A stretch of DNA of 38,851 nt, taken from NCBI GenBank assembly GCA_913058185.1, contig CAJXQX010000033.1, positions 1 to 38,851 of the forward strand, in the 5' to 3' direction. A program made the position numbers and the translations under genes. The notes beneath the pieces were generated by a model. It saw only the letters and a list, made by a program, of their open reading frames with translations. It was not told where the DNA came from and did no database searches. The stretch comes from an uncultured Verrucomicrobiota bacterium (GTDB lineage Bacteria; Verrucomicrobiota; Verrucomicrobiia; Opitutales; Opitutaceae). Shown one piece after another: positions 6,350 to 27,240 of the stretch. Each line of letters starts with the position of its first letter. The first letter of the stretch is position 1.

Positions 6350-7474
6350 ATGGCGATCGACCCTGAGGTTCTGCGCACTCGGATCTCCGAATTGGGTTTC
6401 GATGTGGTGCGGTTTGTGTCGGTGAACGATGAGGCAGCTGGTGGGAACGCGTTCCGAGCATGGTTAACCGCGGAACACAACGCGGACATGAAGTGGTTGG
6501 AGAAAACTCCCGAACGCCGGACAGACCCCCGCAACGTTTTGGAGGGAGCGCGGTCTTTGATCATGTTGGGGGTGAACTACGGTCCGGGTGAAGAGCAAGG
6601 GGATGGGCCAATATGGGCACGCTACTCAACGCATCTCGACTATCACGATACGATTAAGCCAGGGCTGGTGGCGGCGGGTAAGGTACTGGAAGAATTCGGA
6701 GGACTAGAGGCTTCGGACTACCGTTACTACGTGGATACCGGTCCGGTCTTAGAGCGGAACTGGGCCAGTGCGGCGGGGGCGGGGTTTACCGGCAAAAATG
6801 CGATGCTCATTTCCCGGGAGTTCGGCAATTGGTTGATTTTGGCGGCAATCATGGTGCGAGCAGAATTGCCGGCCGATTTACCTATCAGTCGATTGACGGA
6901 AACAAAACCCGTTGGGACGCTGTGCGGTTCGTGCACAGCCTGTTTGGATGCGTGTCCAACCGATGCGCTAACGGCCCCGGGTGTGCTCGATGCTCGGAAG
7001 TGCATCTCGTATCAGACGATCGAGAATAAGGGCATCATTCCACGTGAGCTGCGACCGTCGATTGGTTCGCGGATCTATGGTTGCGATATTTGCGCCGAAG
7101 TTTGCCCGTGGAATCGATTCGCCCAAACGGCGAAATCGGGGCTAATCGCAGCCCGTCCGCACATAGATCGGCTCGAGTTACGCGAGATTTTGGAACTCAC
7201 CCCCGCGACGTTTGCCACGATATTTAAAGGTACGCCGATCAAACGGCTGAAACTGCGTGGTCTGTTGCGAAATGCTTGTATCGTCACGGCGAACGAAGGC
7301 TGCACTGAGTTAACGCCACAGTTGACGAATTTGGCCCGTTCATCTGCGGAACCGTTGGTTAGAGCCCATGCGGTTTGGGCATTGCGAAGGTTGCAGGCTA
7401 ATTCGGAACTCGAATCGATTCGAACGGGAGAGACTGAAGCGCAAGTCTTGGCCGAGTTTGAAGGGGCGGTCTAG
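6350..7474 (+). CDS. queG: Epoxyqueuosine reductase
   Basis: This performs the last step of queuosine synthesis, reducing epoxyqueuosine to queuosine in tRNA with cobalamin and two [4Fe-4S] clusters. Visible features are the catalytic-region VDTGPVLER at 128-136 (Asp129), the first ferredoxin motif CGSCTACLDACP (192-203), a further cysteine in RKCIS (218) and the second motif CDICAEVCPWN (245-255), giving all eight cluster cysteines. The C-terminal part resembles the HEAT-like repeats used to bind the tRNA anticodon stem. The ATG at 6350 is preferred over GTG 6341; 374 residues is normal. Its last 4 bases overlap the stop of the convergent thioesterase gene. Confidence 0.95.
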   Translation: MAIDPEVLRTRISELGFDVVRFVSVNDEAAGGNAFRAWLTAEHNADMKWLEKTPERRTDPRNVLEGARSLIMLGVNYGPGEEQGDGPIWARYSTHLDYHDTIKPGLVAAGKVLEEFGGLEASDYRYYVDTGPVLERNWASAAGAGFTGKNAMLISREFGNWLILAAIMVRAELPADLPISRLTETKPVGTLCGSCTACLDACPTDALTAPGVLDARKCISYQTIENKGIIPRELRPSIGSRIYGCDICAEVCPWNRFAQTAKSGLIAARPHIDRLELREILELTPATFATIFKGTPIKRLKLRGLLRNACIVTANEGCTELTPQLTNLARSSAEPLVRAHAVWALRRLQANSELESIRTGETEAQVLAEFEGAV

Positions 7475-7875
7475 CCGCCGAAGTGCTTTGCCATCAGTTC
7501 GGTGAAGTCATGAGGCGGTCGAGTCGGGTGGCCGCTTTTGTCGATGAATGTGTGTTCGGTGCTCGCGGTGGCGATCAGTTCGTCGCCGCGTGTTAATTCG
7601 TATTCCAATTTAATGCGCAGCCGCGGCCGCTCTTTGAGGCAAACGGAGATTTCGATCACGTCATCATAGACGGCGGGCCGAAGATACTTCACCGCGATGG
7701 ATAGCACGGGCAGACTAAATCCGCTGTCCTCCAGTTTTCGATAGGAGAGGCCACTGTTGCGAAACATGTCCGTGCGGGCTACCTCCAGCCATGGCAGGTA
7801 GCTGCCGTGATACACGACACGCATCATGTCCGTTTCGGCGTAACGCACGCGAATCTCAGATTTTGATTCGATCAT
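7471..7875 (-). CDS. YbgC/4-hydroxybenzoyl-CoA-type acyl-CoA thioesterase
   Basis: A 134-residue single hotdog-domain protein. The active-site segment RYAETDMMRVVYHGSYLPWLE (residues 11-31) matches the YbgC and 4-HBT family, with Asp16 as the catalytic acid and the His23/Tyr26 region forming the usual loop. Members hydrolyse short-chain or aromatic acyl-CoA thioesters, and YbgC proteins often sit with Tol-Pal genes, which are not present here. It lies 48 nt downstream of a minus-strand GT4 gene, probably in the same transcript, and next to the lipid-type locus, so an acyl-thioester substrate from that pathway is possible but unproven. The 3' end overlaps queG by 4 bp. Confidence 0.85.
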   Translation of the reverse strand: MIESKSEIRVRYAETDMMRVVYHGSYLPWLEVARTDMFRNSGLSYRKLEDSGFSLPVLSIAVKYLRPAVYDDVIEISVCLKERPRLRIKLEYELTRGDELIATASTEHTFIDKSGHPTRPPHDFTELMAKHFGG

Positions 7876-7923: not shown

Positions 7924-9078
7924 TCAAGGGGAGGATTCGGGCGCATCACCAAATAGGGCACGGGCTGAATCACTCCAACTGTAGTGGGTAGCCCAAGAGA
8001 GTCCGGCCCGTCCCATTTCCATACGTAGATCAGACGAATTGATCAGTTTTTCAAAAGCGGCCGTGAGCTCTGCCGGTTGATCCGGGGAAACGAGGAATCC
8101 CGTTTCTTGATCGACGACAGCATCGGATACTCCTCCGACATCATGGGCGACCACCGGTAAGCCACGGGCACCCGCTTCGAGGTAGACCAGTCCGAATCCT
8201 TCGACGCTTTTGCCCCAGGCGATACTGGTCATGCTAAAGATGTCGGCCTGGTCGTAGAGCTGGTCGAGTTGATCGTCGGGCACCTCGCCCCAGAATTTTA
8301 CGGGAAAGTCGCAGGTGGCGGCTTGCTCACGTAAGGCCGTTTCGAATTGGGGTCGATTGGCTGAGCCGACGATCCAGTATTCGATTTTCTCGCGCAGCTG
8401 GGGTGCGAGAGCGTTTAGCGCGTTCATCGTCTGGAGTTGACCCTTGCGAGGATGCAAACGGGCTACGGTCAACACGATGGTTTTGGTCTTGGACTGTCTG
8501 GGGGGCGGAGGCTTATCGATGACAACAAAATCGGAGCGGAGAGCGCAGGGAGTTCGAACCAGCTTAGTAGCCGCCCCAGGAAAGTGAGTGGTTAGAAGCG
8601 TGTCGGTAAACCCCGAGACGACACTGATCTTGGTCGCATTACGAATGAGACGGCGGGTCAGCGGGCGGAGAAAACGGTTACGGTGAAATTTCAGGATCTC
8701 CGACCCGTAAAAGGTGAGGACGAGGTTCTTGGGCCGAAGGCAGGGGAAAAATTGCAGCCCCATCATGGTGAGCATCGGCCCAGGCTCGGCCAAGTAGACC
8801 GTGGCGTCGCGTAGCTCTCGGCGACGTTTGACGAACTGATAGCCGAGACGAATCAGGCAGATCAGATCATGGGTGCCTTTGAGAGGCATTCTCCAGATGC
8901 GAAATGGCCACGTCCTTTCCGATGCCTCGGCCTTATCTTGTGCCCAAACCTCGACATCTCGCTCCAACCCCGCGGTCGCACGAGCCATTTCCTCGGTAAA
9001 CATGGCTATTCCTCCCCGTTTGGGGTGGAATTCGTGGGTGATCAGGTAGACCGTCGAATCTGACAGAGTGGTGGTCAT
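7924..9078 (-). CDS. GT4-family glycosyltransferase
   Basis: A two-domain GT-B enzyme of 384 residues. The N-terminal domain opens with a glycine-rich acceptor loop (EFHPKRGGIAMFTEEMAR, 16-33). The C-terminal nucleotide-sugar domain starts near residue 198 (TIVLTVARLHPRKGQ) and carries the retaining-GT signature EGFGLVYLE (Glu293 and Glu301) followed by GLPVVAHDVGG. It has no signal peptide and probably acts at the inner face of the cytoplasmic membrane. It diverges from the ACP-dehydratase gene across 216 bp and precedes the thioesterase gene. Donor and acceptor cannot be told; proximity to the lipid-type locus makes a glycolipid acceptor plausible. Confidence 0.88.
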   Translation of the reverse strand: MTTTLSDSTVYLITHEFHPKRGGIAMFTEEMARATAGLERDVEVWAQDKAEASERTWPFRIWRMPLKGTHDLICLIRLGYQFVKRRRELRDATVYLAEPGPMLTMMGLQFFPCLRPKNLVLTFYGSEILKFHRNRFLRPLTRRLIRNATKISVVSGFTDTLLTTHFPGAATKLVRTPCALRSDFVVIDKPPPPRQSKTKTIVLTVARLHPRKGQLQTMNALNALAPQLREKIEYWIVGSANRPQFETALREQAATCDFPVKFWGEVPDDQLDQLYDQADIFSMTSIAWGKSVEGFGLVYLEAGARGLPVVAHDVGGVSDAVVDQETGFLVSPDQPAELTAAFEKLINSSDLRMEMGRAGLSWATHYSWSDSARALFGDAPESSP

Positions 9079-9294: not shown

Positions 9295-10248
9295 ATGTCT
9301 AATGCAGACCGAAATGGCCAGAGGAGCCTTGAAGCTCTAGAAGCGGCCCGCAAGCCGTTTACAGTCGGAGATGAGACCGCGCTGAGAGATTCTCTGAAGC
9401 GTTGTTCTCCTGCTACGATCGAAGCAGCCATTGCTTATCGTAAAACGGACGAAGCGAGTCACTTACCTGCGGTCATCATTGGCGTGATCGAACGTTTCGT
9501 GGAGGCTGACTTGAGGTCCAAACTCAAACAAGCTGATGATGAACTCCGCTTGGTGGAAGATCTCGGGATAGACTCTCTCACGATGATGGAAATCGTTATC
9601 TTGGTAGAGGATGTGCTGCAAATGCAGATCAATAACGAAGATTTACGCAATTTACGCACGGTTGGAAACATCAAGGTATTCATTGATTGTAAGGCGCGTG
9701 GATTACCTCCGCCGTCGGCCACTAAATTTCTTCCGATCGAGCAGATCATTTCGATTATGCCGATCCAATCTCCGTTCTTGTTCCTCAATGAGGCGACAAT
9801 AGGGGGCAATGGTGCTCAGGGAAAATATAAGATTACGGGCCAGGAGTTCTTCCTCCAAGGACACTTCAAGGATAATCCGGTCATGCCAGCTTCGCTCATG
9901 CTGGAAGCGCTGGGACAGCTCGCCGTGCTATATCTACTCGAAGGCGTCTCGTCGGAAGAGGGTAAAACGATCGATCAAACCAAGATATTCTTCTCCTCAT
10001 GCGAAGGAGTGCGTTGCCACCGAATTTGTCGTCCGGGCGATCTACTTTCACTTTCAATAAAACCGAAACGAACCAAAATGCCTCTCGCGATGTTCGAAGG
10101 CTCAATTCGCGTTGGACAAGAAAAGGCGGCTATGGCCGAGGAAATCACGCTCACTTTTGCCTACAAGGTTGCTAAGCAAGATCCGTCTGATCTGGACCGC
10201 GTGGATGACGACAAGTCGCAACCTCCGCTGACGGTTGTAACGGCGTAA
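9295..10248 (+). CDS. Acyl carrier protein - FabZ-like dehydratase fusion
   Basis: Two fatty-acid-synthase functions are joined in one 317-residue protein. Residues 1-55 are of unknown role. Residues 57-133 form an acyl carrier protein with the phosphopantetheine site DLGIDSLTMMEI, Ser94 being the attachment residue. Residues 140-295 form a hotdog dehydratase of the FabZ/FabA type: QGHFKDNPVMPASLMLEAL places His190 and Glu204 14 residues apart, the spacing of the FabZ catalytic pair. A Gln/Asp-rich tail follows. The protein should carry a growing acyl chain and dehydrate the 3-hydroxyacyl intermediate. It heads the run containing the ketosynthase and reductase. FabZ and ACP are separate proteins in ordinary fatty-acid synthesis, so this suggests a dedicated acyl pathway. 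Confidence 0.88.
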   Translation: MSNADRNGQRSLEALEAARKPFTVGDETALRDSLKRCSPATIEAAIAYRKTDEASHLPAVIIGVIERFVEADLRSKLKQADDELRLVEDLGIDSLTMMEIVILVEDVLQMQINNEDLRNLRTVGNIKVFIDCKARGLPPPSATKFLPIEQIISIMPIQSPFLFLNEATIGGNGAQGKYKITGQEFFLQGHFKDNPVMPASLMLEALGQLAVLYLLEGVSSEEGKTIDQTKIFFSSCEGVRCHRICRPGDLLSLSIKPKRTKMPLAMFEGSIRVGQEKAAMAEEITLTFAYKVAKQDPSDLDRVDDDKSQPPLTVVTA

Positions 10249-10402
10249 GGATTTGCGGGATATTGGATTGGTGCGCAGTGGCACGTTGACGTGAACCAAC
10301 GTATCGGCATGATTTAAATTCTTATCTGATTTTTAAGGAATAGAGCACAATTCTGATCGAGTTGTTCTCGGTTCTTGTCACCCCCCCCTTCGAACTTAAG
10401 TA
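10249..10402 (+). promoter_or_regulatory. 154-bp gap between ACP-dehydratase and ketosynthase genes
   Basis: Unusually long for this otherwise compact run. It contains an inverted repeat ACGTTG (10283-10288) / CAACGT (10297-10302) with an 8-nt loop, an AT-rich stretch (about 10312-10340), and a long C-run (about 10380-10388) just upstream of the ketosynthase ATG. It could hold a second promoter or an operator; there is no T-run to make the repeat a terminator. Confidence 0.25.
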
Positions 10403-11674
10403 ATGGCGAAAGTATTTGTCACCGGTCTCGGGTTTATAACTAGCATCGGAAATGACGCGTCTACAGTAGTAGATTGTTTGAAACGGATGGAGCATGGAAT
10501 CGAGAGCTATCCGGCTTTCGAAGGTGATGATATTCCGGTGAAAGTCGCTGCTCCGGTTAAGGGATTTGATACGGCCTCATACGATCCTGAAGATTGGACC
10601 TTTCCGGATCGTTACCGCGTTAAACGTGAATTTCTACGCAGCATGTCGCCGCATGTGCTCTACAGCTATTGTGCGATGCTGCAGGCGATCGAAGATGCGA
10701 AGCTAGTTCCCGAGGATATCTCGAATGACAATACTGGACTGTTCGCGGCGTCGGCTGGCTCGCCGGATATGCTGACCTATTACGTCGATCGAATGCGCTC
10801 GAAGGGTATCATGCGGTGTTCCCCGCTGGGTATTCCGGCGAGTATCTCGGGAACCGTGCAATTTAATCTCGTCGCGCATTTCAGTATCAAGGGTGCATCG
10901 ACCGGATTTGCCTCAGCATGCGCCTCGTCGTCGCACGCTTTGGGCTATGCCCACGACGAAATCACCCTTGGGCGGCAAGAGCGTATGATTGTGGTCGGGG
11001 CCGAAGATGGGAACGTCGAAACGATTCTCCCATTTGCCGCCATGCGTGCACTTTCACTAAATACCTCTCCGGATACGGCATCGCGACCGTTTGACCGGGG
11101 GCGTGATGGATTTGTCGGCACCGGCGGAGCAACCGTTTTAGTGTTGGAGAGTGAAGCTGAGGTTTCGCGCCGGGGCGTAGAGCCGTATTGTGAGCTGGCG
11201 GGGTGGGGGCAAGCTTCGGATGGGCACAACGTGGCGATTTCGCACCCGGAAGGTGATGGACTAGCCAGCGCGCTGAAGAATGCCCTCAAATCTGCCAAGG
11301 TTGAACCGCAAGAAGTTGATTATATTAACGCCCATGCGACTTCGACTCCGATTGGGGATGTTTCCGAAGCTAAGGCGATTCGCCGGATTTTCTCTGCGGT
11401 TGGCGCACGCCCAGCGATCAGCTCGACCAAGGCCCTTACGGGCCATGGTTTATCATTGGCTGGAGCAATGGAGACCGGTTTTTGTGCCTTGGCGATGCGT
11501 CATGGGTTTATGCCCGGCTCTGCTCATATTACTGACATGGAACCTGCCGTGGCGGATCTAAATATCATCCAAGAAACCGTCGATAGCCGGCCTCAAGTGG
11601 TGGTGAATAACAGCAGCGGATTTGGGGGAGCCAACGTCGCACTCGTGCTTCGTGCGGTCCCATCGGTTGACTGA
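10403..11674 (+). CDS. Beta-ketoacyl-ACP synthase (FabF/FabB-type)
   Basis: A decarboxylating condensing enzyme that extends acyl-ACP with malonyl-ACP. The thiolase fold of 423 residues keeps the full catalytic set: nucleophile Cys173 in SACASSSHALGYA, His311 in NAHATSTPIGD, Lys343 and His348 in STKALTGHGLSLAGAMET, and the glycine-rich NNSSGFGGANVALV at the end. The spacing between the two histidines (37) equals that in FabF. Because all residues are intact it is a true elongating enzyme and not a chain-length factor. The extra genes around it (ACP-dehydratase, reductase, glycosyltransferases) suggest a specialised acyl chain and not bulk membrane fatty acids. The SDR gene begins 7 nt after its stop. 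Confidence 0.92.
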   Translation: MAKVFVTGLGFITSIGNDASTVVDCLKRMEHGIESYPAFEGDDIPVKVAAPVKGFDTASYDPEDWTFPDRYRVKREFLRSMSPHVLYSYCAMLQAIEDAKLVPEDISNDNTGLFAASAGSPDMLTYYVDRMRSKGIMRCSPLGIPASISGTVQFNLVAHFSIKGASTGFASACASSSHALGYAHDEITLGRQERMIVVGAEDGNVETILPFAAMRALSLNTSPDTASRPFDRGRDGFVGTGGATVLVLESEAEVSRRGVEPYCELAGWGQASDGHNVAISHPEGDGLASALKNALKSAKVEPQEVDYINAHATSTPIGDVSEAKAIRRIFSAVGARPAISSTKALTGHGLSLAGAMETGFCALAMRHGFMPGSAHITDMEPAVADLNIIQETVDSRPQVVVNNSSGFGGANVALVLRAVPSVD

Positions 11675-11681
11675 TTTGGTT

Positions 11682-12521
11682 ATGGCATCATCGGAGCATC
11701 GCGCCGTATTCGTCTCGGGGGCGTCTAGTGGCATCGGGGCAGCGGTGGCTCATCATTGGTTGAACCGAGGGTATCAGGTATGGGGCACGGCTCGTTGCCG
11801 AGATCGTTTGACGAAGTTTGCCGATCAGAAGAACTTTCACGCTGTCGAATTTGATCTCTTAGATCGATCCGCTGCGTTGGAATCCTATGAGGAGGCCGAG
11901 AAATCGGCAGGCGGTTTTGGGGTTGTCGTGAATAATGCTGGGTTCGGATTGTTTGGCGTTCTCACCGAAATTCCGGCTCGGCAATGGGACGAACAATTAT
12001 CTGCCATGCTGACGAACACGTTCATGCTGGTTCAACGACAAGTTGAGCTGATGGTCAAAAGGGACCGTTCTGCGACCCTCGTTAATGTTTCATCTTTGGC
12101 AGTCGATTTCCCGCTCCCGTTCATGGCCGGATACAATGTTGCTAAGGCGGGGCTCAGCGCCCTCAGCGAGAGTCTGTTGATGGAACTTTCGAAGACACCG
12201 ATTCGTGTCATAGATTTTCGGCCAGGAGATGTCCGGACGAAGTTCAATGCGGCGATGCAACCCTCCGCGACGGTTGCACCGAGTGCGCAGCCCCAAAAGG
12301 AAAACATGGAAGCAGCCTGGCGAACATTGGAGCAAAACTTGGATCAAGGACCGTCACCCGAGTCGGTCGCAGTGGATCTTTGGCGTGCGGTGAAAAGTGG
12401 GCGAAGAGGCACGGTTACTACTGGTGGATGGTTTCAAGCCACACTTGCCCCATTCTTGATTCGGTTGTTTCCGCAAGGATTAGCTCGCAGTGTCCGGTGG
12501 CGATACTTTGGAATCCGCTGA
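11682..12521 (+). CDS. Short-chain dehydrogenase/reductase (probable ketoreductase)
   Basis: A classical SDR of 279 residues: cofactor loop SGASSGIGAA (12-21), NNAG (84-87), catalytic Ser137/138 in NVSSLA, Tyr151 and Lys155 in YNVAKAG. The start is taken at ATG 11682; the longer frame from 11622 runs inside the ketosynthase gene and adds residues unlike an SDR. Placement after ACP-dehydratase and ketosynthase fits a 3-ketoacyl-ACP reductase that completes a condensation-reduction-dehydration cycle. With the oxoamine synthase in the same locus, reduction of a 3-ketosphinganine-like intermediate is an alternative. The C-terminal tail (about 240-279) is hydrophobic and basic and may contact the membrane. 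No enoyl reductase is seen nearby. Confidence 0.86.
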   Translation: MASSEHRAVFVSGASSGIGAAVAHHWLNRGYQVWGTARCRDRLTKFADQKNFHAVEFDLLDRSAALESYEEAEKSAGGFGVVVNNAGFGLFGVLTEIPARQWDEQLSAMLTNTFMLVQRQVELMVKRDRSATLVNVSSLAVDFPLPFMAGYNVAKAGLSALSESLLMELSKTPIRVIDFRPGDVRTKFNAAMQPSATVAPSAQPQKENMEAAWRTLEQNLDQGPSPESVAVDLWRAVKSGRRGTVTTGGWFQATLAPFLIRLFPQGLARSVRWRYFGIR

Positions 12522-12524
12522 TTC

Positions 12525-13742
12525 GTGGATAAAAAGATTCGAATTCTTGTTTTGACGTCGAGCACGGGTGGGGGGCACGACGCCCGCGCCCAAGCCTTCG
12601 CCCAGTGGTGCTTTGCGCTGTATAAACATGGGGTAGATGTGCGAACCGAGCAGATGTTAGAGAAGTCTTCGGTGATCAATCGCTGGGGAGTGAGTCTCTA
12701 CAATTGGATTCAAATCCGGTTGCCGTTCCTGCATAACCTATTCTTCGCCGCGATCGAGTTACTGAGCATCTTGAATCGTTCGAGTGTCACGTTGGGCAGA
12801 GCGTATTACCATTCGGTGCTCGAGGAGTATCAACCTCACTTGATCTTGAGTGTGCACGACTGCCTAAATCGTGGTTATTTCCAGTATGCTCGGAAGTTGT
12901 TGGGCGAAGAAAAGGTTCGATGTGTGACCTATTGCGGCGAGTTTTCCGGAGGATGGGGTTATAGCCGCAACTGGATCGAGACGTCGGTTGATATGTTCAT
13001 TTCCCGGACGGCGACCGCTCGAGATTTTGCGATCAAGCATGGTATGCCTACGGAGAAGACCCGAGTGCGAGGACATCTCATGCGCCCACAGGCAATGTTA
13101 GAGACCTTCACGGAGAAGGAGCGGATTCGTTTTCGTAGACGGGAATTAGGGCTGAATCCGGATCGGTTTACGGTCTTTTTAGCCACGGGCGGAAATGGCG
13201 CAAATAACCATCGAGAGCTCCTCCCGGTGTTACTGAAGCAGGCGTCCAATTTGCAGGTGATTGCGATCTGTGGGCGGAACCATGAGACTTACAATGAACT
13301 CATGCATTGGCGTTCCAATCATCCGGAATTACCTCTCTTTATCGAGGGTTACACCGATGTAATGCATCTGCTGATTCAAGCTAGTGATGTCATTGTCACT
13401 CGAGGCGGCACGACGACCTGCGCGAAAGCCCTGCACTACGGTTGTCCAATCATATTTAATGGTTTCAACGGCGTCATGCCGCAGGAAAAGCTCACCTGGA
13501 AGTTTTTTCGAAACGGTGCGCGTTCACAGAAGATTGAATCTGCCTCAGATTTCGCGCCGATAATTGATGATTGGATGGCGAATCCGGCGGCATTCTCCCA
13601 ATATCGATCAGAGTTTATTTCGATGCAGTATCCCGATGATCAAACCGAGTTGATTGAAGACATTATTTCGTTGGCGGAAGAGGTCACGGAGACTCAAGCG
13701 ACCCGATATCCGTTTCCGCCTGAGGACGTCAAAGTAGACTGA
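12525..13742 (+). CDS. MGDG-synthase/GT28-like lipid glycosyltransferase
   Basis: A 405-residue GT-B protein resembling the monogalactosyldiacylglycerol synthase / diacylglycerol glucosyltransferase group. The N-terminal domain opens with a TGGGHDARAQAFA loop (14-26), the counterpart of the GGGH loop of this family, and the C-terminal domain has ATGGNGANNH (220-229), ICGRN (248-252) and TRGGTTTCAKAL (292-303), the donor-binding GG(L/T)TT-type motif. Such enzymes transfer a hexose from UDP-sugar to a lipid at the inner membrane surface. It starts with GTG at 12525, 3 nt after the SDR stop, so it is translationally linked to the acyl-chain genes. This is the best single indication that the pathway product is a glycolipid. 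Confidence 0.82.
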   Translation: MDKKIRILVLTSSTGGGHDARAQAFAQWCFALYKHGVDVRTEQMLEKSSVINRWGVSLYNWIQIRLPFLHNLFFAAIELLSILNRSSVTLGRAYYHSVLEEYQPHLILSVHDCLNRGYFQYARKLLGEEKVRCVTYCGEFSGGWGYSRNWIETSVDMFISRTATARDFAIKHGMPTEKTRVRGHLMRPQAMLETFTEKERIRFRRRELGLNPDRFTVFLATGGNGANNHRELLPVLLKQASNLQVIAICGRNHETYNELMHWRSNHPELPLFIEGYTDVMHLLIQASDVIVTRGGTTTCAKALHYGCPIIFNGFNGVMPQEKLTWKFFRNGARSQKIESASDFAPIIDDWMANPAAFSQYRSEFISMQYPDDQTELIEDIISLAEEVTETQATRYPFPPEDVKVD

Positions 13743-13842
13743 CTTAGTTTACCTGAATGTCGCCGTGGCCCATGAAGTTCAAAGTAAGCGCTTGGCCGAT
13801 GCGGTTAAAATAGACAGGTTTCGCAGCGTGCCCGCAAAGCCA

Positions 13843-15039
13843 ATGCACATTATCTATCTCTTTACCACGTTCCCGAAAGCTTCGGAAACGTTTCTCCAAC
13901 GAGAAGTTGAAGCGATGATGACGCGTGGCCATCAATTGACAGTGTATTCGCTATTCGGTGGAGGTGGTGAATTTCAGGGCTTAAGGGTAAAGAAGTTCTC
14001 CATGTGGAAGCTGCTTCAATTGATTTGGGTGATCCCGTGGGTGGCGTTTTCGCGATGGGATGTGTTTGGTATCATATGGCGTGGCCTTTGGACTCGGAAG
14101 GCACCCAGCTGGCTGAACTTTTGGGAAAATATGCTGGGAGCTGGATTTGCTGGAATCTTTTTGCCAGCGATTCGGCGCGATAATCCTGATTTGATCCACG
14201 CCGCGTGGGGAGGGGCACCAGCGACGGCAGCGTGGATGCTCCACCGATTAGCGGGCTACAAATTTAGTGCAGCTGCTCACGCCTATGATATTTACGAACA
14301 TGGCGGCGATTGGTGGCTGGATGAGAAACTGGCCGAGGCGGAGTTTATCCACACCTCTACGGAGATGGGTCGCAAAACACTGATTGAGCGAGGGATCGAT
14401 GCCGCACTGATTCACGTCGTTCGCCGAGGCATGGTCGAGTTTCCGGCTTGTCGTGAACTGCGCGAAGATCGGTCCACGATTCACCTCGTTTGTATTGCCC
14501 GGTTGGTTCCCAAAAAAGGATTCGATCACCAGATGAAGATTTACGCGGTTTTGCGTGAAGCGGGGGTTTTGTTTGAGACTCGAATTGTGGGTGAAGGGCC
14601 TGAGCGCGCTCGTATTGAGCAGGATATTGCGGCCAAAGACCTTGGGGGGATTGTTACTTTGCTAGGAGAGCTCTCCCAGCCAGAGGTGGTATCTCAGCTC
14701 GCCTGGGCTGATGGATTACTTCACACCGGTATCGTTGTTTCTAGCGGGGATCGCGATGGGTTACCCAATGTCATACCTGAGGCGATGATTGCGGGAGTCG
14801 TGGTGTTTACTTCGCCCCATGCGGCCACTACCGAAGCCATTGAGAATGGCACGTCTGGTTGGGTTTTACCGGTCGAGGCTCCGTCGCGTTGGGTAGAGGC
14901 GATAACGTCGTTGCAGGGTGAGACCAACCCGTTGGAGGAGATACGACTCGCCGCCCGGAATTGGGCCGAAAAGAATTACAACGGAGTTCAAAATGCCCAA
15001 AAATTATCCGAGCTATTTGAAGCTGCTGTCCAGCGATGA
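13843..15039 (+). CDS. GT4-family glycosyltransferase
   Basis: A GT-B glycosyltransferase. The start is set at ATG 13843 because the protein then begins directly with the first beta strand (MHIIYLFTTFPKASETFLQRE); a GTG at 13765 would add 26 residues without GT character. The FPK-SETF-REV opening is typical of GT4 enzymes of polysaccharide and glycolipid loci. The C-terminal domain begins near IHLVCIARLVPKKGF and ends with the donor-binding region SGDRDGLPNVIPEAMIAGV, in which the first Glu of the usual E-x7-E motif is replaced by Asp (DGLPNVIPE). A hydrophobic stretch (KLLQLIWVIPWVAF) in the N-terminal half may sit in the membrane surface. Its stop overlaps the next start (ATGA). Confidence 0.85.
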   Translation: MHIIYLFTTFPKASETFLQREVEAMMTRGHQLTVYSLFGGGGEFQGLRVKKFSMWKLLQLIWVIPWVAFSRWDVFGIIWRGLWTRKAPSWLNFWENMLGAGFAGIFLPAIRRDNPDLIHAAWGGAPATAAWMLHRLAGYKFSAAAHAYDIYEHGGDWWLDEKLAEAEFIHTSTEMGRKTLIERGIDAALIHVVRRGMVEFPACRELREDRSTIHLVCIARLVPKKGFDHQMKIYAVLREAGVLFETRIVGEGPERARIEQDIAAKDLGGIVTLLGELSQPEVVSQLAWADGLLHTGIVVSSGDRDGLPNVIPEAMIAGVVVFTSPHAATTEAIENGTSGWVLPVEAPSRWVEAITSLQGETNPLEEIRLAARNWAEKNYNGVQNAQKLSELFEAAVQR

Positions 15040-16052
15040 TATATTTTGATGTAACAAAGTCCGCCAGTTCGCGCCATGCATCTGGTCTTATGCGGGTGAA
15101 TCGTCGCTTGCGCGAAGAACTCGGCGAAGCCGTGCAACCCGTAGAGTGGGGGAAGTGGAATCCCGCAACGGCGTCCAAGTCGGACTGGTATTTAAGCACC
15201 GAAGTTTTTGATGCCGATCAACGAACCGGGTTTATTGAGTTTTTGAAGGAATCTCCCTGCCGCACCGCTGCGATGTTCCCTGACGCGATACCGTTAAAAT
15301 TTCCGGAGATAATATGGCCCCACTCAGTCGCGCGGCACCCTCGGTATATGCACACCTTGTCGTTGTTTGATCACGTATTTGGTATTTCAGAGGAGGTTAA
15401 GCACGATTTACAGGGGTTTTGGGCGTGGCAGGGAACGCCGACAAATACGGCGCTCAGTGTGTTGCCCCTCGGGGCCGATTTTGACGGTTCACCTCGTAGG
15501 TCCCCACAGTTGGAAGTTCCCGCACCTCTATTGGTCTGTGTCGGAATTGTGGAACCGCGAAAGAACCAGTCTTTCCTCGTCGATGTGGCGGAATCGATGT
15601 GGGCAAAAGGACTCGCGTTCGAGTTGCATATCGTGGGCCGAATTAATCCCCATTTTGGCAAACCTATTGTCCAAAAAATCAAAGCGATTGCGGCGCGAAA
15701 CCCTCAACTTCAATTTCATGAAGCAGCTTCCGATGAGGTATTTTCAAACCTGTTGAATCGCGCGCGTAGCGTGGTCTTTCCGACGATTGCGGAGGGGTGT
15801 GGATTGCCTGTGTTGGAGGCGTTGTGGCGCTCTCTGCCCTGCGTTTGTTCCGACCTACCGGTCCTGCGGGAGATTACTCACGATGGAGGCTGTTTATGTA
15901 TCGAACCCAATAATTCGGAAGAATGGGAGCGTGGGCTCACCCAAATTCTTACTGACGACGTTTTGTGGACGAAACTAGCGAACGAGGCCTCGGTCAGACC
16001 ACTTCCAACCTGGTCTGACTCAGCTAATGAAGTGCGGCAGCAGTTGCGGTAG
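15036..16052 (+). CDS. GT4-family glycosyltransferase (paralogue of the gene at 17302-18510)
   Basis: The protein has 338 residues. It begins MIYFDVTKSASSRHASGLMR, and this N-terminal pattern (a short beta strand, Asp, Ser-rich loop, then G-x-x-R-V) is shared with the protein at 17302-18510. The C-terminal domain has LLVCVGIVEPRKNQSFLV, the E-x7-E motif as EGCGLPVLE, and LPCVCSDLPVLREITHDGG. The last residues (WSDSANEVRQQL) also match the paralogue. It overlaps the preceding gene by 4 nt and ends 4 nt before the stop of the convergent oxoamine synthase. The shared ancestry with the gene on the other side of that enzyme suggests the two act on the same acceptor with different sugars or linkages. 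Confidence 0.85.
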   Translation: MIYFDVTKSASSRHASGLMRVNRRLREELGEAVQPVEWGKWNPATASKSDWYLSTEVFDADQRTGFIEFLKESPCRTAAMFPDAIPLKFPEIIWPHSVARHPRYMHTLSLFDHVFGISEEVKHDLQGFWAWQGTPTNTALSVLPLGADFDGSPRRSPQLEVPAPLLVCVGIVEPRKNQSFLVDVAESMWAKGLAFELHIVGRINPHFGKPIVQKIKAIAARNPQLQFHEAASDEVFSNLLNRARSVVFPTIAEGCGLPVLEALWRSLPCVCSDLPVLREITHDGGCLCIEPNNSEEWERGLTQILTDDVLWTKLANEASVRPLPTWSDSANEVRQQLR

Positions 16053-16056
16053 CAGT

Positions 16057-17253
16057 TCAGAGTTTCTTCACCGCGTAGGCCATGGCATCGCCGATTTGAT
16101 CGATCTGATCATTGGTGTGCAGAGCTGAAATGGCTGTTCGAATCAGGTCTTTACCTGGAGGCACCGCAGGAGCAATCGACATGACTGAAAACACCCCTTT
16201 TTCCATCAACGCTTGCCAGAAACGATAGACGGCTTCGCGTGAACCGAGGACAATCGGCACGGCGGGGGTTTCACTGCCCCAAATATCGAGACCGAGAGAC
16301 TTCAGAATCGCGGTGTAACGTTTGGTATTCTTCCAGAGTCGTTCGTGATGTTCAGGCTCGTTTTGCATCACATCGAGAGCGGCCGAAGCGACGGCTGCTT
16401 GGGCGGCAGGAACCGCGGCACTGAATATGGTCTGCTTCGAATTTGTCCGCAGATATTCAATGATGTCCGTGGATCCGGCAATGAATCCACCGGTGCTGGC
16501 GAGAGATTTGGACATGCTTCCGCAAATGATATCCACCTGATCATTCAGACCAAAGTGATCGACGGTTCCGCGACCTTGACGGCCAAGCACACCGAAACCA
16601 TGCGCGTCATCCACAACGTTGAAACAGCCGAATTCTTCACCAACCCCAATGAGTTCGGGCATGCGAGCAATGTGTCCCTCCATCGAGTAGACTCCTTCGA
16701 TCACGAGCATTTTTGCCTGACGCGTGCTCGAGGTCTCCGCGATCTCGCGCAGGTCATTCGGATTGTTGTGGGAAAACCGCTCGACCGCCGCGTGAGAGAG
16801 TCTGGCTCCATCCAATAGACAGGAGTGAATATTCTTATCGGCTAAGATCATGTCACCTTTCTGAGCGAACGAGGCGACACTGGTGAGGCAAGAGAGGTAT
16901 CCGGCCGCGTGAATATGACAGGCTTCGCGACCAAGGAATGTTGCCATTTTTTGCTCCAGTTCCGTGTGGTAAACTCTGGAACCGTTTGACGGACGAGCGC
17001 CCGTCGGGCTCGTGCCCCATTTGGCCAGGGCCTCTTGACCCGCCGTAATCACGTCGGGGTGGAAGGAAAGTCCTAGATAGTCATTGCTCGAAAGCATGAT
17101 CATATCACGTCCCTTCAGTTTTATGGAGGTGCCCACCTGCGATTCAACGGCATGATAATACGGCGCGTATTTGAGCCGCATCTTGGTGGGATAGTCGTCG
17201 CGCAAACGTTGTAAAATTGCCTTAGGACTGCGCTTGAAGAAAGTGAGAGCCAT
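16057..17253 (-). CDS. Alpha-oxoamine synthase, serine palmitoyltransferase-like
   Basis: A fold-type I PLP enzyme of 398 residues that condenses an amino acid with an acyl thioester and releases CO2. It has SSNDYLGLSFHP (55-66), SNGSRVYHTELEQKMATFLG (89-108), EGVYSMEG (186-193), cofactor-binding DDAHGFGVLG (215-224, His218) and the Schiff-base lysine in GSMSKSLASTGGF (Lys249). The SKSLASxGGF form and the long HxELE segment resemble serine palmitoyltransferases of the bacterial sphingolipid group more than 8-amino-7-oxononanoate synthase or glycine C-acetyltransferase, and no other biotin genes are nearby. I favour a 3-ketosphinganine-type product. An AONS-like or autoinducer-type role cannot be excluded. 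It is third in a minus-strand run after a GT2 and a GT4. Confidence 0.85.
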   Translation of the reverse strand: MALTFFKRSPKAILQRLRDDYPTKMRLKYAPYYHAVESQVGTSIKLKGRDMIMLSSNDYLGLSFHPDVITAGQEALAKWGTSPTGARPSNGSRVYHTELEQKMATFLGREACHIHAAGYLSCLTSVASFAQKGDMILADKNIHSCLLDGARLSHAAVERFSHNNPNDLREIAETSSTRQAKMLVIEGVYSMEGHIARMPELIGVGEEFGCFNVVDDAHGFGVLGRQGRGTVDHFGLNDQVDIICGSMSKSLASTGGFIAGSTDIIEYLRTNSKQTIFSAAVPAAQAAVASAALDVMQNEPEHHERLWKNTKRYTAILKSLGLDIWGSETPAVPIVLGSREAVYRFWQALMEKGVFSVMSIAPAVPPGKDLIRTAISALHTNDQIDQIGDAMAYAVKKL

Positions 17254-17301
17254 TTGTAATTGAGAGATTAGGCGGAGAGTGAGGCCGGGAAAAGGGCAAA
17301 G

Positions 17302-18510
17302 TCAGTCATGGGCGTCATTGCGAACAGAAAGTGTGCTCATCCAGTCGTGAATTCGGGTCGCAGAGTCGTGCCACATCGGCGGAATCCGTTGCGTCGTCTC
17401 CTCTCGCAGCGTTTTGAGCCGCTCGCCGTCGTGGAGTAGCGTGGTAATAGCACCGGTGAGAGCTTCCGTTTCCGAGGTGTCCACTGCCACGCAGCCGCCG
17501 CCTGAGGCGATCTCGTAGGTGGCGCCGATATTTGAGCAAATGCAGGGGACCCCATTGAGCACGCTTTCCCAGACCGGTAGTCCAAAACCCTCGAGCAGAG
17601 AGGGGTAGACGGTGAATGATGCGGACTCGTAGGCCTGTTGAAGCTCTTGATCGCTCACCCAGCCGTCATAGCGCACGGGACGGCCAGCTGCTTGCAGCGC
17701 CCTAATCTTGGTCAATGCGTCGTGTCCCGTATCCCGTTGTAATGTGCCGATAATTCGTAGTTCGAACGTATCTCCATTTCTCCACAGTCTTTCAGCAGCG
17801 GACAGCAAGGTAAGGTGATTCTTTCGACCCTCGATCGAACCAACACATAAGATCTTCGGTCGATCTGATTGCTCGTTGGAGCGCGATTGGCCCGCGCCAC
17901 CACGTTTTGGGAGATGATCTAATCCATGAGAAGAAACAATGACATCAGGCACCGGATTCCATCCCGCCCATTTCCAGTAATCGATTAGGGATTGGCGGGA
18001 ATCTTCGGAGACGGCGACGATGCCATCAAATTTTCGCAATTCGGATAAGTAGTTAGGGAATCGGCCGACCGTTCCTTTCGGAGCCAAATGAGGCATGCGG
18101 AGAGAAATCGCGTCATGGAACATCGCAACTTTTGGGCCTGTAAGTCGCTCGAAAAGATCAGGGAGGTTTTGGCCTGTTCGAGCAGTAAATATCTCAGTCG
18201 TCAAAAATCCGGACGTATTCTTTGGCAGGCTCACCGAAGTGGAGGAGGTGTGCAGGTTGCGGTCGATCCACGCGCGCAATTGCTTACGTAGTGGCCAATA
18301 GGCACCACGCCGTTTTGCGGTTCCGGGGACGGTCTCAAGGGTTCGGGTTTCCCAGCTCTGGAGTGGTCGCCAATGCCGCCGATAGGGATCGTGAGTGATG
18401 TCCTCGACGCTGGTGATGTTTTTTAGCGCGCGCCTTAACTCCAGGGTGACTCGCTGCACTCCCGTGCGGGCTTGCGAGTGACTGGTATGAGAAAGATCGA
18501 AGAGGAGCAT
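17302..18510 (-). CDS. GT4-family glycosyltransferase (paralogue of the gene at 15036-16052)
   Basis: The start is taken at the ATG 18508-18510, giving MLLFDLSHTSHSQARTGVQR; a longer frame would run 56 nt into the preceding GT2 gene and adds residues that look like an out-of-frame reading. The protein has 402 residues. The C-terminal domain starts near KILCVGSIEGRKNHLTLL and carries the E-x7-E motif EGFGLPVWE, then VPCICSNIGATYEI. Compared with its paralogue it has about 60 extra residues in the N-terminal half (a basic stretch around RRHWRPLQSWE and RRGAYWPLRKQL). It lies 4 nt downstream of the GT2 gene and 48 nt upstream of the oxoamine synthase, so all three are probably one transcript. 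Confidence 0.86.
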   Translation of the reverse strand: MLLFDLSHTSHSQARTGVQRVTLELRRALKNITSVEDITHDPYRRHWRPLQSWETRTLETVPGTAKRRGAYWPLRKQLRAWIDRNLHTSSTSVSLPKNTSGFLTTEIFTARTGQNLPDLFERLTGPKVAMFHDAISLRMPHLAPKGTVGRFPNYLSELRKFDGIVAVSEDSRQSLIDYWKWAGWNPVPDVIVSSHGLDHLPKRGGAGQSRSNEQSDRPKILCVGSIEGRKNHLTLLSAAERLWRNGDTFELRIIGTLQRDTGHDALTKIRALQAAGRPVRYDGWVSDQELQQAYESASFTVYPSLLEGFGLPVWESVLNGVPCICSNIGATYEIASGGGCVAVDTSETEALTGAITTLLHDGERLKTLREETTQRIPPMWHDSATRIHDWMSTLSVRNDAHD

Positions 18511-18514
18511 CCGC

Positions 18515-19213
18515 TTAGCGGTGCCAAATGTTGTATTTAAAAATCGCGAAGATTGCGCGAACTCCGTCACGCCAACCGATCTTTTTACCCTCTGCGTAGG
18601 TCCGTCCTGCGTATCCGACTCCTACTTCATAAATACGACAGTTCATCCGGGAGATCTTAGCCGTGAGCTCCGGTTCAACGCCGAATCTATTCTCTTCAAT
18701 TGTGATCTGGTGGATGATGTCTCGGCGGAAGAGTTTATAGCAGCACTCCATGTCCGTGAGGTTTAGATTGGTGAACATGTTAGAAAGCAGGGTGAGAAAA
18801 CGGTTTCCGAGCGAGTGCCAGTAATAGAGCACGCGATGCGGCTCACCGCCCATGAAGCGCGATCCGAAAACGACGTCGGCCTTACCGCTGAGCAAGGGTT
18901 TCAGGAGACGTGGGTAGTCCTGAGGATCGTATTCCAGATCGGCATCTTGAATGATCACGAAGTCCCCGGTCGCCTCTTTTATGCCGGTGCGTAGGGCGGC
19001 TCCTTTGCCTTGGTTTACCTTGTGGTGGATGACTCGGCTCACGAGAGGCGCCACCTGCTCGTCTAGCACCTTGGCGGTCCCATCGGTGGAGAAATCATCG
19101 ACGACGATGATTTCTTGTTCGATCTCGATGGGAGCAGCACGAACGGCCGCGATTAGCGTCATCACAGTGTCGCACTCGTTGTAGCAAGGGATTACGATCG
19201 AAAGTTTGGTCAT
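18515..19213 (-). CDS. GT2-family glycosyltransferase, polyprenyl-phosphate (Dpm1/ArnC-like) type
   Basis: A single-domain GT-A protein of 232 residues. [14 protein letters not shown] (4-17), the nucleotide-binding [10 protein letters not shown] (37-46, Asp39-40) and metal-binding QDADLEYDP (89-97) are the signature of the dolichyl/undecaprenyl-phosphate hexose synthases, which make a lipid-linked sugar donor for GT-C enzymes on the outer side of the membrane. There are no C-terminal membrane helices, as in Dpm1-only proteins. It is the first gene of a minus-strand run with a GT4 and the oxoamine synthase, and it diverges from a polytopic membrane protein at 19330, a plausible GT-C partner. 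Confidence 0.86.
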
Positions 19214-19329: not shown

Positions 19330-20973
19330 ATGATGCTGAATCGGGTTTGGAACTGGTTAAAGACTCCACGGGGTAAGGATTCGTGGCGCCCGGGGTGGGC
19401 TATCCTCTACCTGTTCGCGGCATTCGGCCTGTTAGCCAAGCTCGGAGATTATTATGTGCCAGATTATGGTTTTACGTATTTAATCGGCCAAGGGGATGAA
19501 CCGGCCAGAGAGTTTAATTGGATAGAGGAGCGAGACGTTACGGTGTATCGTCACTTCCGTTCGTCAGGCTACGATGCACAGTATTACGCGCAGTTGGCAC
19601 TGGATCCGGCTTTGCTCGATCCGACGCTGACTGAATCGGTGGATAATCTACCATATCGTGCGCGGCGGATTTTACTGCCGTGGACGGCATACCTATTTGG
19701 CATGGGGCAGCCTAATTGGGTCCTCAATGTCTACGCTTTGCAGAATATTGTCTGCTGGTTTCTGCTCGGATGGCTGTTGTTACGCTGGTTTCCCCCGACC
19801 AGTTTCGATCGGGTCTTTAGGTGGCTGGGCATCATGTTTTCATATGGCCTCTGGTTCAGTGCCTTCTTCTCATTGGTTGATGGTCCGAGTCTACTGTTGC
19901 TGGCCTTGGCCCTCCGTTGGATCGAACAAGGACATAGCTGGCGGGCTTCGGCTATCCTGGCGCTGGGTGGTATGGCCAAGGAAACGAACATACTCGGGGC
20001 CGCGGTGCTCGCACCGGATCGATGGAAAAATCTTAATGGATGGGTCAGATGCGTGATTCAAGGCATCCTAGTTGCTTTGCCATTGCTGGCGTGGTTCGCG
20101 TTGTTGCATTGGCGGTTTTTGGATACAGGTTCGCTCGCTGGCGTGCGTAACTTCGCTTGGCCTTTTGTAGCCTATGGCGAACGGTGGGCGGACCTCATCC
20201 GAGTGACGCTGAATGGTGAAGCGAGTTGGAAGTTCTTATCTTCGGGTTGGGCGATGCATTTGAGTCTCACGGTTCAGATGGTGGTTCTACTAGGATGGTG
20301 GCAATGGCGCAAAGCGGCCTGGCGTCTCACGGTGCCTTTTGCCGTGCTTGCATTCGTTTTGGGTGAGGCGGTCTGGGAGGGTTACCCTGGGGCATCTGGT
20401 CGCGTGCTATTACCGATGTTGTTAGGGTTTAATTTGCTCGTGCCTCAAGCCCGCCGTTGGTGGCCGGTGCTGTTATTGGGAAATCTTACAATGTTCGTCG
20501 GACCATTTTCTCTAGAGCCTCGACCGGGCGAAACTTACTCCGTGCAAATTACGGATAGACCCGAACTCTCACTTGATGCGGAAACCACAGAGTTAACGGT
20601 GAGTTTTCCTCGACCTTGGTATCGCGCCGAGAAGAACCGTAAGCGAGAGTGGCGGTGGTCTGAAACTGACGCCGATATCGTTATCAATAACCCCTATACG
20701 AGTGCTCTTGAAATTGAGATTCGCGGTGAGTGGACGGCGCATACCAGCCGAACGGCTCGTCTGACTCAGAATGGTGAACTTAAATGGCAGCAATCGATTG
20801 ATACCCGCATTCGAGATTGGCGGTTGGCGGGCATCATTTTGCAGCCGGGAGAGAACCGGTTACGAATCGAATCAGACGAACATAATTTCGTGGCGAAGAC
20901 TGGGGATGGCCGTCGATTGGCGGTATGCCTGTTCCGGTTTGCGATTAAAGGGAAACCAGTAGCGACGGAATAA
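19330..20973 (+). CDS. Polytopic membrane protein, possible GT-C-type enzyme, with soluble C-terminal domain
   Basis: The protein has 547 residues. A first membrane span lies near 24-42, and the region to about residue 405 holds further hydrophobic helices (about nine to ten in all) separated by short loops. The first large outer loop has paired acidic residues (GDEPAREFNWIEERD) and SGYDAQYYAQLALDP. A D-x-QYY segment at this place occurs in bacterial membrane proteins related to GT-C glycosyltransferases, which use lipid-phosphate sugars. From about 410 the protein becomes soluble and beta-rich (RPGETYSVQI, EIEIRGEWTAHTS, LQPGENRLRIE), likely a periplasmic sandwich domain. It lies divergent from the Dpm1-like GT2 and convergent with the next gene, 5 nt apart. 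Function is inferred, not shown. Confidence 0.6.
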   Translation: MMLNRVWNWLKTPRGKDSWRPGWAILYLFAAFGLLAKLGDYYVPDYGFTYLIGQGDEPAREFNWIEERDVTVYRHFRSSGYDAQYYAQLALDPALLDPTLTESVDNLPYRARRILLPWTAYLFGMGQPNWVLNVYALQNIVCWFLLGWLLLRWFPPTSFDRVFRWLGIMFSYGLWFSAFFSLVDGPSLLLLALALRWIEQGHSWRASAILALGGMAKETNILGAAVLAPDRWKNLNGWVRCVIQGILVALPLLAWFALLHWRFLDTGSLAGVRNFAWPFVAYGERWADLIRVTLNGEASWKFLSSGWAMHLSLTVQMVVLLGWWQWRKAAWRLTVPFAVLAFVLGEAVWEGYPGASGRVLLPMLLGFNLLVPQARRWWPVLLLGNLTMFVGPFSLEPRPGETYSVQITDRPELSLDAETTELTVSFPRPWYRAEKNRKREWRWSETDADIVINNPYTSALEIEIRGEWTAHTSRTARLTQNGELKWQQSIDTRIRDWRLAGIILQPGENRLRIESDEHNFVAKTGDGRRLAVCLFRFAIKGKPVATE

Positions 20974-23564: not shown

Positions 23565-23573
23565 AATTCAGCC

Positions 23574-24461
23574 TTAGTTGCGATGCCGTGGCCACGCTTT
23601 GAGGTAAGCACCGTAGGAAGATTTGCCGAGACGCTCGATTTGGGCATCAAGTTGGGCGTCATCAATCCAACCGCGAGTGTAGGCGATCTCTTCGAGACAG
23701 GCGATTTTTTGCCCCTGTCGGTTCGATATTATCCCCACAAATTCACCCGCTTCGAGCAGTGAATCATGAGTCCCGGTATCGAGCCAAGCCGTTCCGCGTC
23801 CAAGGAGTTCAACCGAAAGGTCACCTCGTTCGAGGTAGCAACGATTGAGGTCGGTAATTTCAAGTTCGCCACGAGGTGATGGCTTCAAATCGCGGGCAAA
23901 ATCAACCACGTCCTTGTCGTAGAAATACAGGCCGGGAATCGCGTAATTCGATTTAGGCTGAGTCGGTTTTTCTTCTAATGAGAGCACCTTGCCGTCGGCC
24001 GCGAACTCAACCACGCCGTAAGCTTCGGGTTCGGAAACGTGATACCCAAAAATGGTAGATCCTGCTTCGCGAGCCGTCGCTGCACCAAGCGCATTCGCGA
24101 AGTCGTGGCCGTAAAAGAGATTGTCACCAAGGACCAAGGCAGAGGGTTGGGTGCCATTGAGGAAACCGACTTGCTCGGCGATTACAAAAGCTTGGGCGAG
24201 ACCATCGGGACTCGGCTGTTCTGCATAGGACAGCGTGATGCCGAAAGCCGACCCGTCGCCGAGGAGTTTTTCGAAAAGGGGTAGATCTTGCGGCGTCGAT
24301 ATGATCAGGATTTCGCGGATGCCGGAAAGCATGAGCACCGAAAGGGGGTAGTAGATCATCGGTTTGTCGTAAACCGGCATGAGTTGCTTGGAGACCGCGA
24401 TAGTAAGAGGGAAAAGGCGGGTGCCGCTTCCGCCCGCGAGGATGATGCCTTTGCGATTCAT
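23574..24461 (-). CDS. rfbA: Glucose-1-phosphate thymidylyltransferase
   Basis: The enzyme joins dTTP and glucose-1-phosphate to dTDP-glucose, the first step of dTDP-sugar synthesis. The whole family pattern is present in 295 residues: [13 protein letters not shown] (8-20), [52 protein letters not shown], and the C-terminal [16 protein letters not shown]. The first ATG (24461) puts the nucleotide loop at the correct distance. It lies 11 nt downstream of rfbB, the second enzyme of the pathway, in the same transcript. Together they make dTDP-4-keto-6-deoxyglucose. Confidence 0.97.
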
Positions 24462-24472
24462 AGGATGAGGTT

Positions 24473-26403: not shown

Positions 26404-26451
26404 AGGAAGTTTTTGATGCTCCGGGATGTGTCTTTGAGTGCAACCCGGATT

Positions 26452-27228: not shown

Positions 27229-27240
27229 GGTGTTCAGCGT

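Follow-up and report, generated by a model that had tools for sequence, protein, structure and literature searches.

What is made by a locus that pairs genes for building an acyl chain with a gene for an enzyme of the kind that joins such chains to amino acids? The question is raised by a stretch of 38,851 nucleotides (contig CAJXQX010000033.1 of assembly GCA_913058185.1; the whole stretch is referred to as the window) from an uncultured Verrucomicrobiota bacterium of the Opitutaceae, a family of the order Opitutales. The source genome (G000) is 4.09 Mb and 99% complete, and the window lies on its contig C33. A preliminary description, made from the window alone, had placed a fusion of an acyl carrier protein (ACP) and a dehydratase (DH), a ketosynthase (KS), a short-chain dehydrogenase/reductase (SDR) and a glycosyltransferase like monogalactosyldiacylglycerol (MGDG) synthase (GT28) in a tight plus-strand run, facing a minus-strand run that ends in an alpha-oxoamine synthase (AOS) like serine palmitoyltransferase (SPT); both the positions and the domains hold (Table 1). 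These genes probably encode a pathway devoted to a glycosylated long-chain-base (sphingoid-like) lipid. The sequence data show the gene content, intact catalytic residues, the AOS phylogeny, co-occurrence, linkage, and no match to canonical ceramide genes at the thresholds used; the reactions and the product are predicted.

The oxoamine synthase

The named relatives of the AOS are from Opitutaceae and other Verrucomicrobiota. Its best match among solved structures is the Sphingobacterium SPT (3a2b, 320 bits), with lower scores for CFAT (28eh, 217 bits), E. coli KBL (1fc4, 183 bits), E. coli BioF (1bs0, 160 bits) and CqsA (117 bits). Residues Asn90, His143, Asp215, Lys249 and Arg372 are invariant in 47 of 47 aligned rows (46 distinct), three of which are distant AOS proteins of 36–43% identity. 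Presumably Lys249 is the pyridoxal phosphate (PLP) lysine, His143 the stacking residue and Arg372 the carboxylate-binding residue, with Asp215 completing the set; residues of the His143, Asp215, Lys249 and Arg372 type are common to the whole AOS family.

A tree of 49 rows, with the SgaB and Black Sea Spt-like sequences discussed below lying outside the comparison, groups the window AOS with 22 others from its order or class (clade support 100/100), and the sister of this clade is an AOS from a Rubrobacter plasmid (99/94). A branch supported at 94/94, and present in 100% of 200 bootstrap trees, gathers the BioF, KBL and HemA rows and excludes the AOS; the enzyme does not fall among BioF proteins. 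The substrate-loop Asn-Gly is present in 23/23 clade members and 5/5 SPT references, and in 0/11 of the BioF, KBL, HemA and Thermus rows. In the Rubrobacter plasmid the AOS is followed by YghO-like (33%) and CerR-like (28%) genes; the three distant verrucomicrobial AOS proteins fall elsewhere in the tree, two having a YghO-like neighbour and the third a CerR-like one. The sequence comparisons thus support the preliminary assignment of the AOS as SPT-like and set it apart from BioF, KBL and HemA.

A role in biotin or threonine metabolism was considered and is ruled out by the tree and the scores. The other full-length AOS of the source genome (on contig C80) groups with KBL, and a third AOS-like match, on C1, is partial (32% over 122 residues).

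Acyl-chain genes and their association with the synthase

The ACP-DH fusion matches the Pfam PP-binding model at 24.8 bits (cut-off 20.8) and FabA-like at 65.4 bits, and ACP Ser94 and DH His190 and Glu204 are invariant in 27/27 aligned rows (25 distinct). Alignment with a solved FabZ-like enzyme identifies Glu204 as the FabZ-type glutamate; FabA has an aspartate at this position. The fusion is matched as two adjacent open reading frames (ORFs) in genomes G055, G273 and G335. A second, stand-alone ACP, 40–59% identical to the ACP part of the fusion, is present elsewhere in G001, G002, G003, G006, G013, G022 and G031.

The KS, for which a full catalytic set had been claimed, retains Cys173, His311 and His348 in all 23 aligned relatives, is closest among solved structures to FabB-type enzymes, and is additional to two places elsewhere in the source genome that exceed the fabF cut-off. 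The SDR, the likelier start of which is the ATG at 11682, retains its Ser, Tyr and Lys in 23/23 relatives and scores 104 bits with the KdsR model (cut-off 400) and 82 bits with its best structure, FabG. It keeps company with GT28 and the AOS while the KS and ACP-DH are elsewhere in four loci (L100, L101, L105, L111), a pattern that would point to a 3-ketosphinganine reductase; this assignment is rejected as a certainty, as in four others (L150, L151, L108, L090) it stays with the KS and ACP-DH away from the AOS. By these comparisons the SDR may reduce a 3-ketoacyl chain or a 3-keto long-chain base. The window proteins that were run against Pfam include no recognized enoyl reductase, save for the SDR match to the superfamily model adh_short_C2, as the preliminary description had noted; its suggestion that the chain stays unsaturated or hydroxylated is a guess, and housekeeping enzymes could supply the step.

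Only two solved structures match GT28 at E <= 0.001, MGDG synthase 1 and processive diacylglycerol beta-glucosyltransferase, and the match to the lipid GT28 enzyme 4wyi is nearly end to end (residues 2–378, 5e-17); the PRK13609 model gives 78.8 bits, below its cut-off of 500. By structure matches, therefore, GT28 is closest to lipid glycosyltransferases, as had been proposed.

The association of the acyl genes with the AOS was examined in 57 relatives and in 387 genomes of the phylum, with thresholds for an AOS match of E <= 1e-60 and E <= 1e-85, respectively; shared ancestry inflates all of the co-occurrence counts. Among the relatives, 46 have an AOS match, of which 45 are counted as orthologues (54–100% identity; the 46th is 33% identical). 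The ACP-DH is present in 47 of the 57, including 43/45 with an AOS orthologue, the two exceptions being genomes that are 82% and 50% complete, and 4/12 of those lacking one. Of these 43 genomes, 24 have the two genes at most 10 kb apart on the same contig. In the phylum set, 51 of 387 genomes match the AOS and six matches at 36–43% identity were dropped, leaving 45 orthologues; the ACP-DH is found in 49 genomes, and 44 of the 45 with an AOS orthologue have both. The one genome with the AOS alone (G204) has an ACP-DH of 36–38% identity that adjoins the AOS (locus L099). The association extends to families f24, f28 and f30 in other orders of the class, bearing out the expectation that genomes with the AOS also have the acyl genes; in many of them the two are physically linked as well.

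Gene order was compared by tblastn in 58 loci longer than 7 kb (L033–L050 and L073–L112, omitting 22 shorter ones in that range). The AOS and ACP-DH are both present in 24 of these, representing 22 distinct contigs (L049 is the same as L075, and L050 as L084), and the remaining 34 stretches did not yield the pair. They are convergent in all 24 linked loci, 20 of which have the KS and 17 the SDR (other genes are counted in Table 1). In the most reduced loci (L086, L088, L089) the ACP-DH, GT4b and AOS stay together, with the KS or GT4c in some. Gene content and gene order alike are repeated as far as other families of the Opitutales, indicating that the arrangement is not due to chance. Three genomes from other orders (G302, G131 and G063) have GT4a, ACP-DH, KS and SDR grouped together, and there the distances between ACP-DH and AOS are about 11, 13 and 70 kb.

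In the genome of Candidatus Synoicihabitans palmerolidicus (G006; L049/L075) the KS, SDR and GT28 were not found, the AOS match is in several pieces and the ACP-DH remains; the locus in this metagenome-assembled genome (MAG) looks decayed. Four loci (L046, L047, L089, L093) have an ABC ATPase and FtsX/MacB-like permease pair near the AOS, possibly for lipid or lipoprotein export, or there by chance. Neighbouring genes in four loci (X6, X7 and X14–X18) were considered as pathway genes and rejected: those with Pfam matches are unrelated (Pta, a P-loop/DRTGG protein, MurJ, DUF4013, a polyprenyl synthetase and a RecN/SMC-like protein), and X15 has no match.

A candidate pathway and its relation to ceramide systems

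From the domains, the KS and the FabZ-type DH would lengthen or alter a chain carried by the fused ACP, the keto and enoyl reductions being provided by the SDR, by housekeeping enzymes of fatty acid synthesis (FAS), or both. The AOS, given its SPT-like phylogeny and its linkage, would then take the chain from the ACP and join it, with decarboxylation, to an amino acid (most likely serine) to give a 3-keto long-chain base, the ketone of which the SDR may reduce. The first sugar would be attached to the lipid by GT28, after which GT4b, GT4c, GT4d and, in some cases, other enzymes would lengthen this into a cell-surface glycan. By analogy with SgaAB, in which a polyketide synthase (PKS) and an AOS yield free long-chain sphinganines, the base may plausibly stay unacylated. 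Thus, the preliminary reading stands in the SPT-like nature of the AOS, the linkage of the acyl genes to it and the likeness of GT28 to lipid glycosyltransferases, while serine use, N-acylation and the SDR step are not settled.

Several results weigh against this pathway. The Thermus enzyme of the 8-amino-7-oxononanoate synthase (AONS)/KBL type outscores the Sphingomonas SPT as a match to the AOS (242 and 236 bits). The SPT models fall short of their cut-offs (SerpalmtaseCFB 376/640 bits, BetaP 337/500 and AlphaP 259/670), the bioF model is relatively as near (323/426 bits), and no NCBIfam cut-off is reached; we therefore use the term SPT-like rather than SPT. The SPT references split in two in the tree, where the deep forks are open, so that the term draws on exclusion from the other groups, the sister relationship and the residues; the Rubrobacter sister itself lacks the Asn-Gly, having Thr-Gly instead. 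As to linkage, the two genes are not within 10 kb in 19 of the 43 relatives with both (they lie on different contigs or, in G012, 1.2 Mb apart), the ACP-DH is present with no AOS orthologue in five of the 387 genomes (G051, G055, G056, G208, G273), and one of these, G056, has GT4b, GT28, KS and ACP-DH with no AOS detected. Part of the gene set may work without the AOS in G056, or the AOS may have been lost or missed. Searches of the source genome for ceramide partners gave no match to a YghO-like query from Rubrobacter, used as a proxy for bCerS (E <= 1e-8; 4/57 relatives match), to CerR from an E. coli record (E <= 1e-10), or to acyl-ACP synthetase (E <= 1e-60; 13/57 relatives match), so that N-acylation is left without a candidate gene at the thresholds used. 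Finally, the searches made of the open-access literature showed no published lipid chemistry in support.

The known bacterial route to the ceramide backbone uses Spt, bCerS and CerR, to which Rhodobacteria add an acyl-ACP synthetase and AcpR (PMC11334938, PMC11324152). The preliminary description had proposed a search of the source genome for homologues of ceramide synthase and ceramide reductase, and with none matching as above, the word sphingolipid is not supported in the ceramide sense. A YghO query from the E. coli record matched only 1 of 19 genomes; the CerR query gave weak, partial matches of superfamily strength in 5 of 19, with the other 38 of the 57 relatives outside the search. The equation of YghO-like proteins with bCerS is inferred from gene neighbourhood, as they adjoin SPT-like genes in L119, L120, L103, L104 and L149; caution comes from a Roseomonas locus (L122), which has acyl-AMP ligase and CerR-like genes and no YghO-like gene in the stretch fetched. 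One relative of the family Opitutaceae (G016) has a ceramide-type set (L149, C13:52000-71999) with an AOS (37%), an acyl-AMP ligase (41%), a YghO-like protein (42%) and a CerR-like protein (39%), and holds the Opitutales locus on another contig; the two are therefore not the same system. In the E. coli PN43 plasmid record (L119), an acyl-AMP ligase, a CerR-like gene, an ACP and an SPT above the BetaP cut-off lie between yghO and LptG/LptF. A role for the lipid as a replacement for lipopolysaccharide (LPS) is ruled out by the presence of LpxC in the source genome; LpxC is also present in 51/57 relatives.

The Rhodobacterial ceramide locus (spt, acpR, aasR, bcerS, cerR; e.g. L119 and Roseomonas L122) resembles the window in having an SPT-type AOS beside a dedicated ACP, and acyl-AcpR is its preferred acyl donor (PMC11324152). 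In the window, by contrast, the ACP is fused to a DH and a KS takes the place of the acyl-ACP synthetase, there is no CerR-like or bCerS-like match, several glycosyltransferases belong to the core, and the AOS is in another clade. In Pseudomonas fluorescens MYb115, SgaAB likewise pairs a chain-building synthase with an SPT-like AOS, giving free very-long-chain sphinganines and phosphoglycerol sphingolipids (PMC12134224), although SgaA is a single PKS protein whereas the window has discrete, type II-like ACP-DH, KS and SDR proteins along with glycosyltransferases. The Bacteroidota SPT (3a2b) is the closest AOS by score among those both solved and annotated, its model cut-off being unmet as given above, and the Bacteroidetes enzymes use acyl-CoA (PMC11324152). 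Spt-like proteins, judged by AOS phylogeny, have been predicted in 22 Verrucomicrobiota MAGs from the Black Sea, and an ACP-DH/KS/GT28 locus is not described in the available text of that study (PMC11334938).

A more specific proposal, which we offer tentatively and which may well prove wrong, is that the locus represents a third way in which bacteria make sphingoid lipids, one widespread in Opitutales. In this proposal the ACP-DH and KS would act as a type II mini-FAS feeding the SPT-like enzyme directly, and the base would be glycosylated by the MGDG-synthase-like enzyme, bypassing ceramide, to give an oligoglycosyl long-chain-base lipid of the outer surface that is N-unacylated (or acylated in some other way). 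SPT-like AOS enzymes and carrier-fed AOS enzymes are already known, and Spt-like proteins had been predicted in Verrucomicrobiota; it is the combination with the acyl genes that seems to be new. We found no description in the open-access literature of type II acyl genes together with an AOS, an SDR and a lipid GT28, in keeping with the earlier statement that no locus of exactly this content had been described. Bacterial sphingolipid producers are predicted mainly by spt, bcerS and cerR (as in PMC11334938), and if the proposal is true there would be an uncounted group of producers and a new glycolipid class predicted in a common phylum, as well as a system of discrete proteins for acyl transfer from a carrier protein to an SPT-like enzyme.

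Alternative readings and the surrounding genes

The best of the alternatives, which we regard as rather unlikely, is that the product of the cluster serves as lipid anchor or carrier of a surface polysaccharide, on the model of rkpAGH or of capsule loci with a PKS, an AOS and an SDR, the amino-lipid being just the foot of a glycan that the numerous glycosyltransferases nearby would assemble. Farther along, the window has rmlAB, an RmlD-like gene and numerous glycosyltransferases, and a Sinorhizobium meliloti locus of similar logic combines a 7.5-kb multidomain gene, an AOS, an SDR and capsule genes. From its gene order we take this locus to be rkpAGH, part of rkp-1 (rkpAGHIJ), the record carrying no rkp names. 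It resembles the window in having a synthase, an AOS and an SDR, which in its case serve a polysaccharide lipid.

The rkp-1 products are said to help make a specific lipid carrier for capsule secretion (PMC4881576), and a Pseudomonas plasmid has a type I PKS and an AOS with SDR and capsule genes nearby. The RkpG-like S. meliloti AOS and the Pseudomonas AOS form a clade of their own (100/100), however, apart from the Opitutales AOS, and the S. meliloti locus differs further in its one large multidomain gene and adjacent capsule genes. The window proteins scanned include no member of a capsule-export family, and rmlA, rmlB and rmlD occur together in only 1/24 linked stretches (L034), many of which stop short of that point. 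The first-step chemistry would be the same as in the pathway for a glycosylated long-chain base, from which the anchor differs mainly in the final product. In the Pseudomonas case (L130, plasmid of Pseudomonas sp. TMW 2.1634) the type I PKS and AOS lie beside an SDR gene, a gene like lipoteichoic acid (LTA) synthase and capsule genes, a possible link of PKS-derived sphingoids to capsule anchoring.

It is improbable that the locus consists of two independent neighbours, an acyl module (ACP-DH, KS, SDR, GT28, GT4a and the 4HBT-type thioesterase) that yields an unusual fatty acid or glycolipid, and, separately, an AOS and glycosyltransferases with another purpose. The separation of the two genes in the 19 relatives, the occurrence of GT4a, ACP-DH, KS and SDR as a unit of their own in other orders (L150–L152), and the AOS-free set of G056 would fit such a division; the co-occurrence in 44 of 45 genomes, extending to f24, f28 and f30 outside the Opitutales, and the persistence of the reduced set of ACP-DH, GT4b and AOS in three loci argue against it. 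Very improbable is an AOS that makes another amino ketone from a different amino acid or a short chain (e.g. a cysteate-derived sulfonolipid or a signal, like CFAT or CqsA), since, although enzymes of this family catalyse varied reactions and every score is below its equivalog cut-off, solved CFAT and CqsA both score below SPT and the SPT-type Asn-Gly is absent from the single CFAT-like row of the tree (Bernardetia; it matches 28eh at 7.5e-174).

Within the pathway for a glycosylated long-chain base, the plus-strand genes are closely packed, with gaps of 154 nt (ACP-DH/KS), 7 nt (KS/SDR), 3 nt (SDR/GT28), 22 nt (GT28/GT4b) and −4 nt (GT4b/GT4c). This run converges on the minus-strand run of GT2, GT4d and AOS, the AOS being last, with 4 nt between GT4c and the AOS. 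Four glycosyltransferases besides GT28 (GT4b, GT4c, GT4d and GT2) lie within 9295–19213, the number given by the preliminary description. The functional unit slightly exceeds these bounds, as GT4a and the 4HBT thioesterase are often kept beside the ACP-DH, and the AZOBR_p60025-like protein is likely an accessory to the pathway.

Table 1. Genes of the locus and its immediate neighbours, in window coordinates, with their frequency among the 24 linked loci where counted.
Feature	Coordinates	Strand	Evidence	Linked loci	Remarks
4HBT-type thioesterase	7471-7875	-	Pfam 4HBT_2, 64.4 bits	16/24	Frequent neighbour of the acyl module
GT4a, GT4 glycosyltransferase	7924-9078	-	Pfam	18/24	Frequent neighbour of ACP-DH, also in other orders (L150-L152)
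ACP-dehydratase fusion (ACP-DH)	9295-10248	+	Pfam/NCBIfam, FabZ structures, catalytic residues		
Ketosynthase (KS), FabB/FabF-type	10403-11674	+	Pfam/NCBIfam, solved structures, Cys173/His311/His348		
SDR ketoreductase	11682-12521	+	Domain models, FabG as best structure, residues		Listed ORF from 11622
GT28, MGDG-synthase/processive diacylglycerol glucosyltransferase-like	12525-13742	+	Domain models, structures	19/24	
GT4b, GT4 glycosyltransferase	13765-15039	+	Pfam	24/24	
GT4c, GT4 glycosyltransferase	15036-16052	+	Pfam	20/24	
SPT-like alpha-oxoamine synthase (AOS)	16057-17253	-	PLP Lys249, Arg372, SPT-type Asn90-Gly; models, structures, tree		
GT4d, GT4 glycosyltransferase	17302-18570	-	Pfam	18/24	Upstream of AOS, in one run
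GT2 (GT2a), polyprenyl-phosphate-sugar-synthase-like	18515-19213	-	Pfam/NCBIfam	7/24 (one a weak 28% match)	Adjoins AOS only in the nearest relatives
AZOBR_p60025-like protein (cell-surface glycopolymer formation)	19330-20973	+	NCBIfam, 115.9 bits (cut-off 150)	13/24	

The remainder of the window to the right (20979–38819) is a long minus-strand glycan locus with rmlA, rmlB, an RmlD-like gene and two epimerase/dehydratase-like genes. A 604-residue protein encoded there is without a Pfam match and has about ten transmembrane-like stretches, and three glycosyltransferase proteins of 861, 1248 and 656 residues each contain at least two glycosyltransferase domains.

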